From Flavobacteriales bacterium (GTDB lineage: Bacteria > Bacteroidota > Bacteroidia > Flavobacteriales > Crocinitomicaceae), in NCBI GenBank assembly GCA_947375085.1, contig CANCEQ010000091.1:1-11526 (forward strand): a stretch of DNA of 11,526 nt, read 5' to 3'. Under the pieces are notes generated by a model that worked only from the letters and a program-made list of their open reading frames with translations, did no database searches and was not told the DNA's origin. Position 1 is the stretch's first letter; each line of letters opens with the position of its first letter. Made by a program: the position numbers and the translations under genes. Below, one piece after another: positions 4,543 to 10,645 of this stretch.

Positions 4543-4944
4543 TTGAGATTTTTATTCCTGATAGTATTTACATTAACAGTTCTTTTGCAGTCACTGCAAG
4601 GGTTCTTTACGATTGTAAATTGGAAAATAAATCAAGCTGAATTAACTGCAAAATATTGTGTAAACAAAGCAAAACCGATGCTGAAGTGTAACGGTAAATG
4701 TTATTTAGCGAAACAATTGAAAAAACAAGAGGAACAAGACAAAGCAGAGTTCAATAAGAAATCAAAAAGTCAGGTTCCAAAATTTAAAAAAATCAAAGAA
4801 GGAGAGATATTCAATGACATTCAGTCAGTTGATTATATTTTAGCAATACAAAATAATAAAAATAATAAACCTTCTACATCATTTTCAGTCGAATATTCTT
4901 TCGATGAAATTTCTAAATGTTTTCAACCACCCCAATTTTCGTAG
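4543..4944 (+). CDS. Small membrane-anchored CNGKCYL protein A (unknown function)
   Basis: 133 residues from a TTG start; no ATG occurs in the N-terminal region, and the TTG gives an N-terminus matching the paralog at 10062. Residues 2-25 are one hydrophobic helix (signal anchor or signal peptide). It is followed by a conserved Cys block with Cys39, Cys49 and Cys53 (C-x9-C-x3-C) ending in C49-N-G-K-C-Y-L-A-K-Q-L59. Next comes a Lys/Glu/Gln-rich charged stretch (about 60-85), then a less structured tail ending in Q-P-P-Q-F-S. The Cys block would lie outside the cytoplasmic membrane. Three Cys in this spacing could bind a metal or be redox active, and the copper-linked genes downstream favour a Cu(I) role, but this is inference. 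I do not recognise a named family. Confidence 0.85.
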   Translation: MRFLFLIVFTLTVLLQSLQGFFTIVNWKINQAELTAKYCVNKAKPMLKCNGKCYLAKQLKKQEEQDKAEFNKKSKSQVPKFKKIKEGEIFNDIQSVDYILAIQNNKNNKPSTSFSVEYSFDEISKCFQPPQFS

Positions 4945-4952
4945 TTATTTTC

Positions 4953-5050
4953 TTTTACCACAGAGTAGAATGAGTTTTGCGCAGAGTTTCACAGAGTTTT
5001 AATAAAATTCTGAGATTCTTTTTATACTCCTTTGCGATATCTGTGGTTAA
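4953..5050. repeat. CACAGAG-type intergenic inverted repeat, copy 1
   Basis: Outer arms ACCACAGA (4957-4964) and TCTGTGGT (5040-5047) are perfectly complementary. Between them lie CAGAG-containing units, including C-A-G-A-G-T-T-T-C-A-C-A-G-A-G. It fills most of the 183-nt gap between small Cys protein A and the first MbnP gene and resembles the larger copy at 10435-10634. Confidence 0.75.
4992..5023 (+). terminator. Probable rho-independent terminator after small Cys protein A
   Basis: Within the repeat, CAGAGTTTT (4992-5000) pairs with AAAATTCTG (5004-5012), one G-T wobble, 3-nt loop AAT. A T-rich tract (TTCTTTTT, about 5016-5023) follows. It would separate Cys protein A from the MbnP gene transcript. 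Confidence 0.55.
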
Positions 5051-5127
5051 ATTTTATCGATTAATTAATTACGAAAATAATTTCTGAACAAGTAAAATAT
5101 AAACTGTTTGGATTAAAAAATAATAAA

Positions 5128-5922
5128 ATGAAAACATTAAAAATTTCAATGATCGCCCTTTTAGGGTTAGCTTTAACATTATCAACTTCTTGTAAAAAAG
5201 AAACAGTAGAACCAACTCCAACACCAGCTGTTGATCCAGGAAAAGGTTCTGTATCGATCGTTTTAACTCATAAATGGGGAATGATGAACGAACAAAATTT
5301 TGTTTTAGGTTCTGATTTAATTCATCCAATGCACCATGATACCTTGAATTTTTCTAAATTAAAATATTATGTTTCTAATGTGAAATTCAAAAAAACGGAT
5401 GGGACGTATTTTGTACATCCAGAAAGTTATTTCTTGGTTGATTTAGCAGATTTAGCTACAACTACATTGGCTATTGCAGATGTACCAGCAGCTGATTATA
5501 CTGAAATGAGTTATACTTTAGGTGTTGATAGTGCTAGAAATTGTTCAGGTGCTCAAACAGGTGCATTAGATCCTGTAAATACAATGTTCTGGAGTTGGAA
5601 TTCAGGTTATATTGCAACTAAAGCTGAAGGTAATTACATGAAAAACAAAGTTTCTACTCCATTTGTATTTCATTTAGGAGGTTTCAAAGGTGCGACTAAT
5701 GTTGTTACTACTAAAACGATTTCTTTTTCAGCAAACAATTTGACTATAACTAAAGATAAAACTTCTAAAGTTAAAATTACAGTGAATCCAGGTACATTGT
5801 TTCATACTACAAGTGTAAAAACATTAGATATGATTCATATGCCTGGTGCTGATGCTGTTTCTATGGCGGTAGGATTTTACACCCATTCTTATGGCTTCAT
5901 GTTTGATGCTATTGAAGAGTAA
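5128..5922 (+). CDS. MbnP-like copper-associated lipoprotein (canonical type)
   Basis: 264 residues. Signal peptide with lipobox S-T-S-C22, so a lipid-anchored envelope protein. The mature part matches the MbnP family: Y80-Y-V-S-N-V-K-F (about 80-87), G132-V-D-S-A-R-N138, G145-A-L-D-P, M153-F-W-S-W-N-S-G-Y161, E167-G168 and F181-H-L-G-G185. In methanotroph MbnP a tryptophan is oxidised to kynurenine by the partner MbnH and then takes part in copper binding. Trp155 and Trp157 here sit in the corresponding signature. Additional His residues (66, 69, 70, 182, 226, 237, 253) could be metal ligands. The next gene is the MbnH-like enzyme, but a perfect hairpin with T-run lies between, so this gene is probably expressed more strongly than those downstream. 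No methanobactin genes are in view. I saw no clear -7 box upstream. Confidence 0.88.
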   Translation: MKTLKISMIALLGLALTLSTSCKKETVEPTPTPAVDPGKGSVSIVLTHKWGMMNEQNFVLGSDLIHPMHHDTLNFSKLKYYVSNVKFKKTDGTYFVHPESYFLVDLADLATTTLAIADVPAADYTEMSYTLGVDSARNCSGAQTGALDPVNTMFWSWNSGYIATKAEGNYMKNKVSTPFVFHLGGFKGATNVVTTKTISFSANNLTITKDKTSKVKITVNPGTLFHTTSVKTLDMIHMPGADAVSMAVGFYTHSYGFMFDAIEE

Positions 5923-5937
5923 TATTTATCAATAATT

Positions 5938-5976
5938 AACTTAAGTCTTAATATACTTTTTAAGACTTAAGTTTTT
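5938..5976 (+). terminator. Strong intercistronic hairpin/terminator between mbnP-like and mbnH-like genes
   Basis: A perfect 14-bp stem (5938-5951 with 5960-5973), 8-nt loop, and a TTTTT run at 5972-5976, just 14 nt before the next start codon. No promoter fits in the space after it. It thus looks like a partial terminator or 3' stabiliser setting the ratio of upstream to downstream products. Confidence 0.85.
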
Positions 5977-5989
5977 AATCTTTCTCAAA

Positions 5990-7018
5990 ATGAGGATTTT
6001 ATTTACTGTTTTTGTTTTTTTTATTTTAATGATTTATAGTTGTAAAAAGGAAACAACTGTAATTTCTTCCTATTCTGAAAGATATTGGAAATTCACCTTG
6101 CCAGAGGGTTTTCCTGAGACAAATTATAAATTTGAAAATAATGAACAAACGCAACCAAAGTTTGAATTAGGTCGTTGGTTATTTTATGATCCAATTCTAT
6201 CAGTTGATAATAGTGTTTCCTGTTCGTCATGCCATGCCCAACCACATTCGTTTTCAGATCATAATGTTGCATTGAGTAAAGGTGTTTTAGGACTTAAAGG
6301 TCATAGAAATGCACCAGCGCTTATCAATTTACTTTGGAATAAAAGTTTTATGTGGGACGGTGGAGTAAATCACATCGAAGTTCAGCCTTTAGTTCCTATT
6401 ACTAGTCAGTTTGAAATGAATGAAACATTAGAAAATATCGTAAAAAAATTAAATAAAAGTGATTTTTATAAAGTGAGATTTAAAGAAGCTTTTGGGGACG
6501 ATGAAATTACAAGTCAGAAAATATTGAAAGCACTTACACAGTTTATTTCTATGTTGATTTCCTCTAACACAAAATATGATAAATATGTAACTGGAATGGG
6601 AGACTTTACAAGTCAAGAAAAAGCAGGTCTTCAATTGTTTCGGGAGAATTGTGCTTCTTGTCACAGAGAACCATTATTCACAGATTATTCATTTAGAAAT
6701 ATAGGTTTAGATTCGGTTTCTATTGATGCTGGAAGAGAATTAATTACATTAGATCCTTTAGATAAAGGTAAATTTAAAGTGCCCACATTAAGGAATGTTG
6801 AATTGACTTATCCTTATATGCATGATGGTCGATATCAAAACTTAACTCAATTATTGAATCACCATACCAATAATGCAATTATTACCGATTTAACGGATGT
6901 TTATATTAAGAATTCCAAATTGTTTACTCAAGATGAAAAAAATAATTTAATAGCTTTTTTATATACTTTAACGGATTACACACTAATAGGTAAGTTAACT
7001 TTTTCAGAACCAAAATAA
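5990..7018 (+). CDS. MbnH/MauG-like di-heme cytochrome c peroxidase lipoprotein
   Basis: 342 residues. N-terminal hydrophobic segment with a lipobox-like I-Y-S-C18, then two c-type heme sites: C78-S-S-C81-H82 and C221-A-S-C224-H225. The spacing, M121-W-D-G-G near heme 1, K263-V-P-T-L-R-N-V270 and Y276-M-H-D-G-R-Y282 are those of the bacterial cytochrome c peroxidase/MauG superfamily. Length fits the catalytic unit. Paired with an MbnP-type gene directly upstream, the best call is MbnH-like: a di-heme enzyme that uses H2O2 to oxidise Trp of the partner to kynurenine. Plain peroxide detoxification is the alternative. Whether the distal ligand of the six-coordinate heme is Met, His or Tyr cannot be read safely here. 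It is the first gene of a tight run (gaps 7, 10, 3, 3 and 2 nt) through 10430. Heme attachment requires export and Ccm/Ccs machinery encoded elsewhere. Confidence 0.9.
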   Translation: MRILFTVFVFFILMIYSCKKETTVISSYSERYWKFTLPEGFPETNYKFENNEQTQPKFELGRWLFYDPILSVDNSVSCSSCHAQPHSFSDHNVALSKGVLGLKGHRNAPALINLLWNKSFMWDGGVNHIEVQPLVPITSQFEMNETLENIVKKLNKSDFYKVRFKEAFGDDEITSQKILKALTQFISMLISSNTKYDKYVTGMGDFTSQEKAGLQLFRENCASCHREPLFTDYSFRNIGLDSVSIDAGRELITLDPLDKGKFKVPTLRNVELTYPYMHDGRYQNLTQLLNHHTNNAIITDLTDVYIKNSKLFTQDEKNNLIAFLYTLTDYTLIGKLTFSEPK

Positions 7019-7025
7019 TAATTAA

Positions 7026-8105
7026 ATGAAGTATTTAACAATTCTATTTTTAGTTTTTCTGAAAGTAAATTTTACTCTAAGTCAATCAGATTCAGTAGAG
7101 TTATGTGGGAATTCTTGTGTATGTTCAACAGATCCTACTCCGGCAGGTGTGATGATTAGTCACGTACATTCTAAAAACGAATGGATGGTTTCTTACCGAT
7201 ATATGAATATGGGAATGAATGGTCTACTAACAGGTTCAAAATCTATTTCAGAGAACGAAGTTTTTACTAATTATATAATGTCACCATCATCAATGAAAAT
7301 GGATATGCATATGATAATGGGAATGTACGGGATAACAGATCGATTGACATTAATGGTGATGTTAAATTACACGACTTCTTCGATGGATATGAATATGTTT
7401 ACTTCAGATAACCATAATCACGAGGGAATGGTAGGGATGGAAGGTATGTCAAATTCTAATCTAAGTAATCATACAATGAAATCTATAGGTTTATCTGATT
7501 CAAAAATTCAATTTTTATACGGTTTAAAAAAGCACAAAAATTATCAGGTACTTGCTAATTTAGGATGTAATATACCTAATGGAAGTATTGAAGTTAAAGG
7601 GGCTTCGACTGATATGATGTATCCTTCAAATCGTTTACCTTATGGTATGCAACTCGGTTCAGGTACTTTTGATTTATTACCAGGGGTTACGTATTTGTAT
7701 CAAAAAAATGATTTGACAGTCAGTGTTCAAGCAAGTTCTGTCGTTCGATTAGGTTATAATAAAGTAGGTTATAAGTTAGGGAATGAAGCTGGTATAAATG
7801 CTTGGATAGCATATACATGGTTAGATAATTTGAGTTCTTCATTTCGAATTGAAGGAAATGTAACTTCTAAAATTCAAGGTGTTGATCCTACGATTTATGC
7901 TTTTAATGAACCGTCTGCATATCGTTTAAATTATGGAGGAGAAAAAGCGATTTCTTATATAGGAACAACTTATCAATTTCAAAAAGGAATACTCAAAAAC
8001 AATCGAATAGGAATAGAATATGGATTACCGATTTATCAAAATTTAAACGGAATTCAAATGAAGCAAAATCAAACTGTTTATGCTTCATGGTCATATGCAT
8101 TTTAA
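7026..8105 (+). CDS. Methionine-rich outer-membrane beta-barrel, putative copper transporter
   Basis: 359 residues with a signal peptide (cleavage near Ser19/Gln20) and a C-terminal aromatic residue (S-W-S-Y-A-F), as expected for a beta-barrel substrate of the BAM machinery. The later half shows alternating strand patterns. The mature N-terminus has a Cys cluster, C27-G-N-S-C31-V-C33, then P-A-G-V-M, E-W-M-V-S-Y-R-Y-M. Methionines are extraordinarily dense: 22 of the 26 lie in the first 151 residues, including M90-K-M-D-M-H-M-I-M-G-M100, with His at 130 and 132 nearby. Met/His/Cys clusters of this kind bind Cu(I). Similar Met-rich transporter-annotated barrels occur near MbnP-type genes in other bacteria (recollection). 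It sits 7 nt after the MbnH-like gene, in the operon. Transport direction is unknown, and a structural copper-binding role is possible. Confidence 0.8.
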   Translation: MKYLTILFLVFLKVNFTLSQSDSVELCGNSCVCSTDPTPAGVMISHVHSKNEWMVSYRYMNMGMNGLLTGSKSISENEVFTNYIMSPSSMKMDMHMIMGMYGITDRLTLMVMLNYTTSSMDMNMFTSDNHNHEGMVGMEGMSNSNLSNHTMKSIGLSDSKIQFLYGLKKHKNYQVLANLGCNIPNGSIEVKGASTDMMYPSNRLPYGMQLGSGTFDLLPGVTYLYQKNDLTVSVQASSVVRLGYNKVGYKLGNEAGINAWIAYTWLDNLSSSFRIEGNVTSKIQGVDPTIYAFNEPSAYRLNYGGEKAISYIGTTYQFQKGILKNNRIGIEYGLPIYQNLNGIQMKQNQTVYASWSYAF

Positions 8106-8115
8106 ATAATTAAAG

Positions 8116-8886
8116 ATGAAAATAAAAATTATAGTATCCATTATTTTAATAAGTGTTTTTCTTTTTTCAGCATGTAAAAAGAAAACAGTTGAACCTACAA
8201 AAGCTAATACTCCAACAGGTGTATTAATGATGCACTTGCATACAAATATTGCTTCAACTGAAGTGGATAAATATGATTCTGTATATCAAGATGTGAATGG
8301 AAGAAATATGTCATTGAATTTAGCTCAAATGTATATTTCAGATATTCAGTTAGTTAAATTAGATGGATCAATTTATAAAGTAGCTGATAAAAATTTCTTA
8401 AAAGTTTTTGAAACAGAAGGATACAAATTAGAAAATATTCCAGTTGGAAATTACAAAGCGATTCGATTTAAAGTGGGTTTAAATTTAACTATAAATGCAT
8501 TAGAGCCGTCAAATTCAACATATTCTTCATTATTAAATAAATCGGAAATGTGGTTCACAAATCCTTTTCAGTCAAATGGTTATGTGTTTGCAAATATTCA
8601 AGGGGAAATAGATACTACAGCAACTAAAAATGGTTCCTTAATTCCTTTTAGTTATAAAATTGGTACTGATGCTAATTTAATTGAAGTTTCTTTACCTGAT
8701 AAAAATTTCACAGTCTCTGAAGGAATGTTAGCTTATTCTCATTTAATTATTGATTATTCAAAAGTTTTTGAGGGTGTCCAACTAAATCAAGCGAATAATT
8801 TAACTATTAATTCTGTAGCAGATAATTCCTCATCGTTAGCAACAACAATTAAAAACAATATCTCATCCATGTTTCATTTTGAGTAA
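8116..8886 (+). CDS. MbnP-like lipoprotein, divergent type (paralog 1)
   Basis: 256 residues. Lipobox F-S-A-C20, then Lys-rich. The core begins G35-V-L-M-M-H-L-H-T43 (His40, His42). It continues with S66-L-N-L-A-Q-M-Y-I-S75, I77-Q-L-V-K-L-D-G84 and P109-V-G-N-Y-K-A-I-R-F118, the MbnP-like order of a first strand with His, the Y-I-S strand, D-G turn, P-x-G-x-Y and then the G-V/L-D/N region. The canonical F-W-S-W-N-S-G-Y block is replaced by M145-W-F, with a single Trp146, then N-G-Y-V-F. Family membership is thus good but it belongs to a separate subgroup. It is lipid-anchored in the envelope, and the two His plus Trp146 are candidate copper-site residues (inference). It is followed after 3 nt by its own duplicate. 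Confidence 0.82.
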   Translation: MKIKIIVSIILISVFLFSACKKKTVEPTKANTPTGVLMMHLHTNIASTEVDKYDSVYQDVNGRNMSLNLAQMYISDIQLVKLDGSIYKVADKNFLKVFETEGYKLENIPVGNYKAIRFKVGLNLTINALEPSNSTYSSLLNKSEMWFTNPFQSNGYVFANIQGEIDTTATKNGSLIPFSYKIGTDANLIEVSLPDKNFTVSEGMLAYSHLIIDYSKVFEGVQLNQANNLTINSVADNSSSLATTIKNNISSMFHFE

Positions 8887-8889
8887 GTT

Positions 8890-9669
8890 ATGAAGATAAA
8901 AATTAAATTAATCACATCAATTTTAAGTGCTTTATTTTTAACCTCTTGCGTTGACAATGTAATGAACGATGCTCCTGATAAGGACAATCCGCCTACTGGA
9001 ACTTTAATGTTTCATTTACACACATATCTTGAAGATCAAGAAGTTGATTTATATAATATTGAGTATACGCTTCAATCGGGAAAGGTGATGTCTTTGAGTT
9101 TAGCACAGATGTATATTTCAGAAATACAATTAGTTCGATTAGATAATACGACCTATGATATTCCTTTAAAGAAAGTATTAAAAGTGTTTGAAGCAGAAAG
9201 TTATTTAGCAGGAAATGTCCCAGTTGGAAATTACAAAACGATTCGATTTAAAGTTGGTTTAGATGTCACAACAAATGCTTTAGAACCAAATAGTTCAGCA
9301 GATTCAATCATTTTAAATAAATCAGAAATGTGGTTTTCTCAGACGGCTCAACAAGATGGCTATGTATTTATGAATGTTCAAGGAATGATTGATACAACTT
9401 CTGATAATTCAGGTTCAAAAATACCATTCTGTTATAAAATTGGAACGAATGCAAATTATCTACAAATCAATATGCCTGAAAAGCCTTATACAATTACAAA
9501 AGACCAGGTTTTCTATCAGCATATCTACATTGATTACACGAAATTGTTTACTGATGTTCAATTGAATTTAGCATCTAATTTATCAATCAAAACACCTATT
9601 GAAAATGTATCTTCTTTAGCTCAAAAGATAAAGAACAATATCGCATCAATGTTTATTTATGAAAATTAA
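8890..9669 (+). CDS. MbnP-like lipoprotein, divergent type (paralog 2)
   Basis: 259 residues, lipobox L-T-S-C20. Roughly half identical by eye to the gene just upstream along its whole length: G37-T-L-M-F-H-L-H-T45 (His42, His44), S68-L-S-L-A-Q-M-Y-I-S77, P111-V-G-N-Y-K-T-I-R-F120, L142-N-K-S-E-M-W-F149 (Trp148), and the C-terminal K-N-N-I-A-S-M-F. It differs in that the residues after the lipidated Cys are V-D-N instead of K-K, and in two additional Cys-poor loops. A local 43-bp window of DNA (9220-9262) is nearly identical to 8440-8482, so the duplication or a gene-conversion event is fairly recent or the stretch is tightly constrained. Function is inferred to be the same as its neighbour; they may bind different partners or be sorted differently. 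Confidence 0.82.
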   Translation: MKIKIKLITSILSALFLTSCVDNVMNDAPDKDNPPTGTLMFHLHTYLEDQEVDLYNIEYTLQSGKVMSLSLAQMYISEIQLVRLDNTTYDIPLKKVLKVFEAESYLAGNVPVGNYKTIRFKVGLDVTTNALEPNSSADSIILNKSEMWFSQTAQQDGYVFMNVQGMIDTTSDNSGSKIPFCYKIGTNANYLQINMPEKPYTITKDQVFYQHIYIDYTKLFTDVQLNLASNLSIKTPIENVSSLAQKIKNNIASMFIYEN

Positions 9670-9672
9670 CCT

Positions 9673-10059
9673 ATGCTGATTCGACTTGTTTTATTGATGG
9701 TTTTGGTAATAGGAACATCTTTTTCGTGTAAAAAGAAAAAAGCATCGACAACGATTGATTGTCAGGTTGTTGATGCTGTTTCTTTTCAAAAGAACATTGT
9801 TCCCATTTTTGAAGCGCATTGTGTGAGTTGTCATTCTGGATCAAATGCAAGTGGAAATTTAAACCTAGAAGCAAATGTTGCCTATCAAAATTTAAGTGAT
9901 TCAAAAAGCGGATATATTGATACGATTAATCCAACGTATAGTTTGATCTATGCTTCTATGATTTCTACATCTAATCCGATGCCTCCTAACGGAAAGTTGG
10001 ACAAATGTACAACCGATTTGATACTTAAATGGATTCAACAAAAAGCTAAAAATAATTAA
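9673..10059 (+). CDS. Mono-heme cytochrome c lipoprotein
   Basis: 128 residues. Signal peptide with lipobox F-S-C19 followed by K-K-K-K. One heme-binding site C50-V-S-C53-H54, preceded by the typical V-S-F-Q-K-N-I-V-P-I-F helix. Met103 in the S-N-P-M-P-P segment is the likely sixth ligand. The fold and M-P-P-N-G resemble the small planctomycete-type cytochrome domain (PSCyt1-like) found in many Bacteroidota lipoproteins. Two further Cys (30 and 112) may form a disulfide. It should be an envelope electron carrier. In this operon it could feed or drain electrons of the MbnH-like enzyme or keep copper reduced; this is inference. The start ATG at 9673 lies 3 nt after the preceding stop. Confidence 0.9.
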   Translation: MLIRLVLLMVLVIGTSFSCKKKKASTTIDCQVVDAVSFQKNIVPIFEAHCVSCHSGSNASGNLNLEANVAYQNLSDSKSGYIDTINPTYSLIYASMISTSNPMPPNGKLDKCTTDLILKWIQQKAKNN

Positions 10060-10061
10060 AA

Positions 10062-10430
10062 GTGAAGCGTAGTATTGTCGTATTTTTCCTTTTTATTTTT
10101 GTTCTACAATGTGGAATGAAAGGGATTATTACGACTGTTTTTTATTTTCAACAATCTACCATTTCAAAAACACTTTGTGAAAATAGAAATAAGCCTAAAA
10201 TGCATTGTAATGGTAAATGTTATTTAGCCAAGCAGTTAAACAAAGAAGAAAAGAAAGACAAAGGAATTCAAAAAGTAAACAAAGATATCGTTGAGTTCTT
10301 TATGATTGTACCCGAATCATATTCTTACGATATAAATTATTATCATTTAAAAAAGGAATATAGTTCTATTTCATTTGAAAGAAAATATGATTCTGAATTA
10401 GATTCATTGTTGCGACCGCCGATTGTTTAG
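10062..10430 (+). CDS. Small membrane-anchored CNGKCYL protein B (paralog of the gene at 4543)
   Basis: 122 residues from a GTG start, 2 nt after the cytochrome stop, so surely the last gene of the operon. It has the same plan as protein A: short basic start, hydrophobic helix (about 5-26), Cys39, Cys49 and Cys53 at exactly the same residue numbers, C49-N-G-K-C-Y-L-A-K-Q-L59, a Lys/Glu-rich stretch, and a short tail ending R-P-P-I-V. The shared core, the conserved K-P before Cys49 and the terminal P-P point to a real family, not chance. The protein probably has its Cys block on the outer face of the inner membrane. Metal delivery or sensing, or thiol redox, are open possibilities. I do not recognise a named family. 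Confidence 0.85.
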   Translation: MKRSIVVFFLFIFVLQCGMKGIITTVFYFQQSTISKTLCENRNKPKMHCNGKCYLAKQLNKEEKKDKGIQKVNKDIVEFFMIVPESYSYDINYYHLKKEYSSISFERKYDSELDSLLRPPIV

Positions 10431-10434
10431 ATAT

Positions 10435-10634
10435 TTTTTTAACCACAGAGTTAAGGGAGTTCATCACGGAGTTTCACAGAGTTTTTATTACGAAACAGTA
10501 AAGATGCTCTAATAAATCGCGTGTAAAACTTTCATTTCTAATTGGTTAAGCAATATCGAAAAAACAATGAATAATATAAAACAACTCAGTGTAACTCTGT
10601 GAACTAAACTCAGTGTGTACTCTGTGTTAAAAAA
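10435..10634. repeat. CACAGAG-type intergenic inverted repeat, copy 2 (about 200 bp)
   Basis: TTTTTTAAC (10435-10443) pairs perfectly with GTTAAAAAA (10626-10634), and TTCACAGAGTT (10473-10483) with AACTCTGTGAA (10593-10603). Further CACAGAG or CTCTGTG units lie in both arms, each about 50 nt, around a spacer of about 100 nt. It fills the 215-nt gap between the operon end and the propeller gene, which otherwise shows no gene. It could terminate transcription or be a small non-autonomous mobile or dispersed repeat. Confidence 0.8.
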
Positions 10635-10645
10635 CAACACATAAA

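Follow-up and report, generated by a model that had tools for sequence, protein, structure and literature searches.

A candidate Cu(I)-handling outer-membrane gene cluster containing an MbnP/MbnH-like pair in a Flavobacteriales contig

The window analysed here (the whole stretch of 11,526 nucleotides, contig CANCEQ010000091.1 of Flavobacteriales assembly GCA_947375085.1) carries a run of genes at 4543-10430 which contains an MbnP/MbnH-like pair, that is a PF20243 lipoprotein (MbnP1) followed by a diheme enzyme; a preliminary description of this DNA reported the pair and was silent on the longer run. The run is interpreted, with moderate confidence, as an outer-membrane system that handles Cu(I) and in which Trp155 of MbnP1 becomes kynurenine. 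This interpretation is favoured because MbnP1 belongs to PF20243, has the fold of 7L6G and carries Met, Trp and His residues which align with those of 7L6G; because all but one of 96 evenly drawn MbnP loci have a diheme enzyme as neighbour and the substrate residues are kept in eight loci in which a heme ligand of the enzyme has changed; because an adjoining barrel bears a methionine ladder and the genes are spaced by 2-10 bp; and because YtkA-like, TonB plug-like and SCO1 clusters recur near MbnP.

In this view the products of the run would deal with Cu(I) in the cell envelope, at the outer membrane. The neighbouring diheme lipoprotein would oxidise Trp155 of MbnP1 to kynurenine, giving a Cu(I) site together with Met153 and His182, and the barrel (Met barrel) would offer Cu(I) a path through the outer membrane on a wall lined with methionines. 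Two small cysteine proteins (smC1 and smC2) and two further PF20243 proteins (MbnP2 and MbnP3) may pass copper on or tune the system, while a small cytochrome may exchange electrons with the diheme enzyme. The pair is of a known kind; in this example the axial ligand of the MbnH-like enzyme is exchanged, and the enzyme gene is closely packed with that of a Met-ladder barrel, which ordinary cassettes lack. The features concerned are as follows:

5128..5922, + strand: MbnP1, predicted lipoprotein of 264 amino acids with WxW and the MbnP fold, candidate Cu(I)-kynurenine protein (PF20243)
5584..5598, + strand: codons Met153-Phe-Trp155-Ser-Trp157 of MbnP1 (conservation; aligned with MAWNW of 7L6G)
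5671..5673, + strand: codon His182 of MbnP1, candidate copper ligand (conservation; aligned with a His of 7L6G)
5990..7018, + strand: MbnH-like CCP_MauG diheme enzyme, predicted lipoprotein of 342 amino acids (PF03150, two CxxCH)
6221..6235, + strand: enzyme heme motif 1, CSSCH (Cys78, Cys81 and His82 in 168/168 homologs)
6650..6664, + strand: enzyme heme motif 2, CASCH (Cys221, Cys224 and His225 in 168/168 homologs)
6863..6865, + strand: enzyme codon His292 (CAT), in the place of the family Tyr (family alignment)
7026..8105, + strand: Met barrel, predicted 12-strand outer-membrane barrel with a methionine ladder and an N-terminal C27-x3-C-x-C33 and H46-x-H48
7185..7397, + strand: methionine ladder of the barrel, Met54 to Met124, 15 ladder positions

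MbnP1 and the distribution of the pair

Both open reading frames (ORFs) and the motifs quoted for the first of them in the preliminary description (GVDSARN at 132-138, FWSWNSGY at 154-161 and FHLGG at 181-185) were found in place, and MbnP1 fell inside the PF20243 family to which it had been ascribed (2.6e-49; 168.1 bits, cut-off 27). The narrower NCBIfam MbnP model, TIGR04052, gave 48.2 bits against a cut-off of 140 and was likewise missed by all three MbnPs tried from other Bacteroidota loci, while PDB searches with the single MbnP1 sequence and with profile A1 led nowhere. MbnP1 shares the MbnP fold of 7L6G, the copper site of which we take to consist of Met, His and a Trp-derived kynurenine, and its Met, Trp and His align with their counterparts there; WxW together with this Met and His was present in MbnP1 and in neither MbnP2 nor MbnP3. 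The N-termini of MbnP1 (LSTSC-KK) and of the enzyme (MIYSC-KK) read as those of Bacteroidota lipoproteins, so that the lipid anchors claimed for both proteins stand as predictions.

Among 170 diheme-adjacent MbnPs longer than 150 amino acids, His182 was present in 170, Trp155 in 168, Trp157 in 160 and Met153 in 156; the earlier choice between Trp155 and Trp157 is therefore narrowed, conservation favouring Trp155. Trp157 was absent from ten of these proteins (L146, L152, L154, L156, L158, L161, L163, L166, L167 and L174), and the second Trp looks dispensable because Trp155 was kept in eight and His182 in all ten of them.

The distribution of the pair was assessed in 296 evenly drawn Bacteroidota genomes (the even sample), in which PF20243 was found in 78 (77 over cut-off). 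The 96 MbnP loci taken from it cover 99 PF20243 matches over cut-off, three sub-cut-off matches being left out; a diheme enzyme followed MbnP in 95 (not in L172), smC lay upstream in 42, a barrel was near in 33 and all three were present in 31. The corresponding counts among the relatives of the window (the best 80 of 309, giving 81 loci with the window itself) were 72, 61 and 50 for the diheme enzyme, smC and the barrel, some of the misses being contig ends.

It had also been noted that no methanobactin gene was in view, and PF05114 (the MbnB family) was indeed absent from the 15 window ORFs scanned with Pfam, as well as from the genomes of seven relatives. Weighing against an absence of methanobactin more widely, PF05114 was present in 20 of the 296 even-sample genomes and was commoner in those with PF20243 (12/78) than in those without (8/218); in the 12 genomes with both, the two genes were in every case on separate contigs or at a distance of more than 300 kb, and the Pfam name also takes in TglH and ChrH. 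An MbnP/MbnH pair without methanobactin was rejected as a novelty, such pairs outside methanobactin operons being already described in an excerpt of PMC3621798 (section 12). Compared with MbnP/MbnH of Methylosinus trichosporium OB3b (7L6G; 6E1C), the window has no methanobactin gene in view, encodes predicted lipoproteins, scores below the TIGR04039 and TIGR04052 cut-offs, has His292 for Tyr and adds extra paralogs, the Met barrel and smC. By their published descriptions, MopE/SACCP and CorA/CorB likewise join a surface copper protein containing kynurenine with a diheme CCP-type enzyme (passages of PMC3912023; PMC3621798, section 12).

The diheme enzyme and its residue 292

The enzyme, previously read as a member of the MauG superfamily with two CxxCH motifs, matched PF03150 CCP_MauG (4.9e-52; 177 bits against 25.6) and does contain both motifs. 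TIGR04039, the MbnH equivalog, was its best NCBIfam model at 195 bits, below the cut-off of 362.85, which was also out of reach of all seven diheme enzymes tried from other Bacteroidota loci. Its best PDB sequence match was 1IQC, a 'di-heme peroxidase' (1.4e-42), ahead of 6E1C, 'Di-heme enzyme' (1.8e-34), which we take to be MbnH. Conservation was determined over 168 MbnP-adjacent homologs of 300-480 amino acids (truncated ORFs, such as those of L003 and L159, were left out). Glu142 was present in 168/168, and the enzyme has kept all positions conserved at 95% or more, including Glu142 and both CxxCH motifs, save for Leu in place of Val at 288.

The departure from the family is at position 292, where His292 aligns with the Tyr at 6E1C chain position 312, presumably the axial ligand of the six-coordinate heme. 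Tyr was found at this position in 151/168 MbnP-adjacent homologs and in 29/29 other diheme enzymes; the 17 non-Tyr members have His (the window and L036), Lys (L004, L006, L007, L008, L046 and L052), Phe (eight) or Trp (L054). An order-wide sample (30 loci chosen by best match among 299 genomes belonging to a single order, some of which repeat earlier genomes) gave Tyr in 28 and Lys in two, these being the genomes of L052 and L046 again. A sequencing error at His292, for which one transition would be enough, was set aside: L036 also has His, and the Lys group stands beside it. In an enzyme tree of 44 rows, with the ligand column retained, an 11-row clade (99/99) held the window and L036 (His; 96/91), L001, L002 and L005 (Tyr; 97/89) and the six Lys rows (100/100). 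Since the His rows were sister to the Tyr rows (86/76), the tree suggests, short of proof, two separate ligand changes. A ligand swap tracking the barrel unit was rejected, as L001, L002 and L005 keep Tyr though their genomes carry the barrel; an MbnP2-type gene is also present in two of these three genomes (G007 and G004).

According to part of PMC6405878, both BthA Y463H and MauG Y294H are unable to form the bis-Fe(IV) feature seen in the near-IR, and BthA Y463H still reduces H2O2. The preliminary description saw the pair as pointing to Trp oxidation in an unrelated copper system; the likely copper context and the MbnP/MbnH-type pair are retained, and Trp oxidation was overstated, because the axial position is occupied by His292 and the same Tyr-to-His change abolishes bis-Fe(IV) in BthA and MauG. 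The main rival explanation, to which we give a rather low probability, is that the enzyme has lost its tryptophan oxidase function and acts as a bis-His (or His/Lys) heme peroxidase or electron-transfer protein, MbnP1 binding copper without kynurenine or with a kynurenine made by another enzyme of the cell. The His in the window, the Lys in six relatives and the retained peroxide chemistry of BthA Y463H fit this explanation, as does a further diheme match in the draft genomes of five of the seven ligand-changed relatives, although it is remote in G601 and G600 (32% and 35% identity). Met153, Trp155, Trp157 and His182, however, are intact in all eight ligand-changed loci, and in G527 and G561 (the draft genomes of L046 and L052) the Lys-type enzyme was the sole diheme match with an E value of 1e-20 or below.

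A bolder reading, rather unlikely as a whole, is that this natural MbnH, its ligand swapped to His (Lys in sister lineages), goes on making kynurenine in MbnP; a Tyr-ligated, bis-Fe(IV)-stabilising heme would then not be obligatory, and the product would load, or be loaded by, a methionine-lined Cu(I) barrel, which would represent a novel kind of channel for copper in the outer membrane. The loci offer a natural test of whether the heme must be Tyr-ligated for oxidation of Trp to kynurenine, a question which, to our knowledge, has been approached to date with point mutants only. Tyr (L001, L002, L005), His (the window, L036) and Lys (L004, L006, L007, L008, L046, L052) enzymes with the same substrate residues make up a directly testable set. 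MauG and BthA share with the enzyme the CCP_MauG superfamily and two hemes, and MauG oxidises a partner Trp, whereas the window enzyme has His for the axial Tyr and is neighbour to a PF20243 lipoprotein rather than to methylamine dehydrogenase.

The Phe-bearing enzymes lie elsewhere in the family (L127, L133, L137-L140, L144 and L145), and seven of the eight have an APYGSFGQF variant. A second diheme enzyme is encoded downstream of the barrel in Hymenobacter loci L055, L065, L066, L067, L068, L071, L074 and L076; in L055 it scores higher against TIGR04039 (305 bits) than the MbnP-adjacent enzyme (232 bits).

The methionine barrel and its link to the pair

The window barrel is predicted to have the 12-strand channel fold of COG4313/PF13557 barrels. 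It had no Pfam match, staying under the PF13557 cut-off of 22, which a distant relative (L188) reaches with 28.1 bits, and a PDB sequence search led nowhere. A median of 15 of the 15 ladder positions was Met across 72 Met-barrel rows (alignment A5), compared with 0 or 1 in 25 hand-picked barrels of ordinary cassettes (ACDxCGC type); a single barrel family across all cassettes was consequently rejected. The ladder side chains probably face the barrel lumen, as judged from their alternation, which is clear in strand 3 and in agreement in strand 1. The 15-Met ladder, the Cys/His N-terminus and the lack of a Pfam match set the barrel apart from COG4313/Phenol_MetA_deg (PF13557) channels. PcoB came up as a distant match, one of many barrels to do so. 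According to a portion of PMC9210255, its funnel is electronegative and takes Cu(II), as against the Met wall of the window barrel; the same source describes Cu(I) transfer as dependent on Met and Cys ligands, which is in keeping with the favoured interpretation.

The enzyme and barrel genes are 7 bp apart, all gaps across 5990-10430 are 2-10 bp, and the genes may well form one transcript. The enzyme gene adjoins its MbnP partner at a gap of 67 bp (even-sample median MbnP-to-diheme gap, 1 bp).

Several points weigh against the favoured interpretation. Copper is proposed as the metal from Met/His/Cys content and knowledge of the families; His292 stands in for a Tyr whose change to His does away with bis-Fe(IV) in BthA and MauG (PMC6405878, in part); 1IQC outranks 6E1C; and barrel residues 89-102 and 118-126 have no Met alternation. 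In addition, the Met barrel was found at none of the 96 evenly drawn MbnP loci (threshold at least 150 bits), with 8 matches in the 81 window and relative loci, and it is on other contigs than MbnP in L001, L002 and L005. These last observations also suit the view that an ordinary MbnP/MbnH pair sits beside outer-membrane genes with no functional link to it, the barrel, paralogs and cytochrome being a separate unit there by chance, and ten even-sample genomes have a strong Met-barrel match which in six adjoins smC without MbnP. We consider this unlikely: the spacing of 7 bp, and of 2-10 bp onwards, speaks against it, and both units also occur together in L003, L004, L007, L008, L036, L046 and L052 (L006 shows just the end of the second unit).

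With regard to direction, uptake appears more likely than export. The genes might instead guard against copper by efflux or periplasmic sequestration, without uptake; this is improbable to about the same degree as loss of oxidase function. Met-rich proteins are found in both copper uptake and resistance, which is to the credit of a protective role, and PcoB, a copper barrel, sits in a resistance operon (PMC9210255, in part). Against such a role, the 15 window ORFs scanned gave no match to a P-type ATPase, RND pump or multicopper oxidase family, and CorA, an analogous kynurenine protein, is copper-repressed, which fits acquisition (an excerpt of PMC3912023).

Paralogs, smC proteins and other neighbours

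The remaining features of the run are:

4543..4944, + strand: smC1, small Cys protein, predicted to be membrane-anchored or secreted, with C39, C49-x-G-x-C53, a C-terminal PP and a TTG start (no Pfam match; family alignment)
5938..5973, + strand: 14-bp AT-rich inverted repeat with an 8-nt loop, between MbnP1 and the enzyme gene (RNA folding)
8116..8886, + strand: MbnP2, PF20243 lipoprotein paralog without Trp157 and His182 (PF20243, 2.9e-20)
8890..9669, + strand: MbnP3, second PF20243 paralog, MbnP2-like (PF20243, 1e-19)
9673..10059, + strand: small c-type cytochrome, predicted lipoprotein, CVSCH (PF07635, 25.7 bits, cut-off 22)
10062..10430, + strand: smC2, second small Cys protein, GTG start (family alignment)

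MbnP2 and MbnP3 matched PF20243 with 73.4 and 71.7 bits, respectively. Together with eight orthologs from seven relatives they have no Trp157 and have Lys in place of His182, so that these paralogs are not expected to hold an MbnP-type kynurenine-copper site; HxHT and a third His are invariant in all 10 sequences of the clade.

No Pfam family covers the smC proteins, and no NCBIfam model comes close to its cut-off with them. C39, N41, C49, G51, C53, P129 and P130 are invariant in 32 rows, and CxGxC was present in 70/70 copies. In the even sample smC was found in 120/296 genomes, 57/78 with and 63/218 without PF20243, and at loci away from MbnP a TonB-receptor-sized gene (one of two clusters) was nearby in 17/20; on both counts, smC as a partner of MbnP alone was rejected. 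Four members of the TonB-receptor-sized clusters were scanned, of which three were TonB receptors and one had no Pfam match. Both the CxGxC...PP protein and the Met-ladder barrel recur as Bacteroidota envelope proteins with no family name in the scanned libraries, and a copper hypothesis is now testable for them. Open-licence PMC literature gave no account of the gene cluster, the Met barrel or smC, a weak test as smC and the barrel have no searchable name.

Clusters recurring near MbnP in the even sample included TonB plug-like (12 loci), YtkA-like (11), YHYH (7) and SCO1 (5) ones, along with housekeeping-looking ones; 6 of the 22 commonest listed were scanned, and the single TonB plug-like member scanned scores 19.8 bits, under the cut-off of 23.9.

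The inverted repeat folds as RNA at -18.1 kcal/mol (z -4.0; as good in 0/200 shuffles) and possibly attenuates the genes downstream of MbnP1. Scans of the window against Rfam and for tRNA led nowhere. Set A3 comprised 49 of 76 picked representatives (the window and 48 others) plus 19 protein-search matches. Intergenic repeat blocks of the CACAGAGTT type follow both smC genes (4945-5010 and 10431-10645). A T9SS sorting tail (PF18962, by Pfam) is encoded at 1-1353, and record titles of the relatives name Bacteroidota in 76/80, the exceptions being L001, L016, L041 and L072; on these grounds a Bacteroidota origin is very probable. In the enzyme tree, L016 (titled Glaciecola amylolytica, CP034120.1) and L001 (titled Actinomyces viscosus) fall among rows with Flavobacteriales titles, and the L016 genome (G428) came from the same order as the L001 genome; both titles look wrong.
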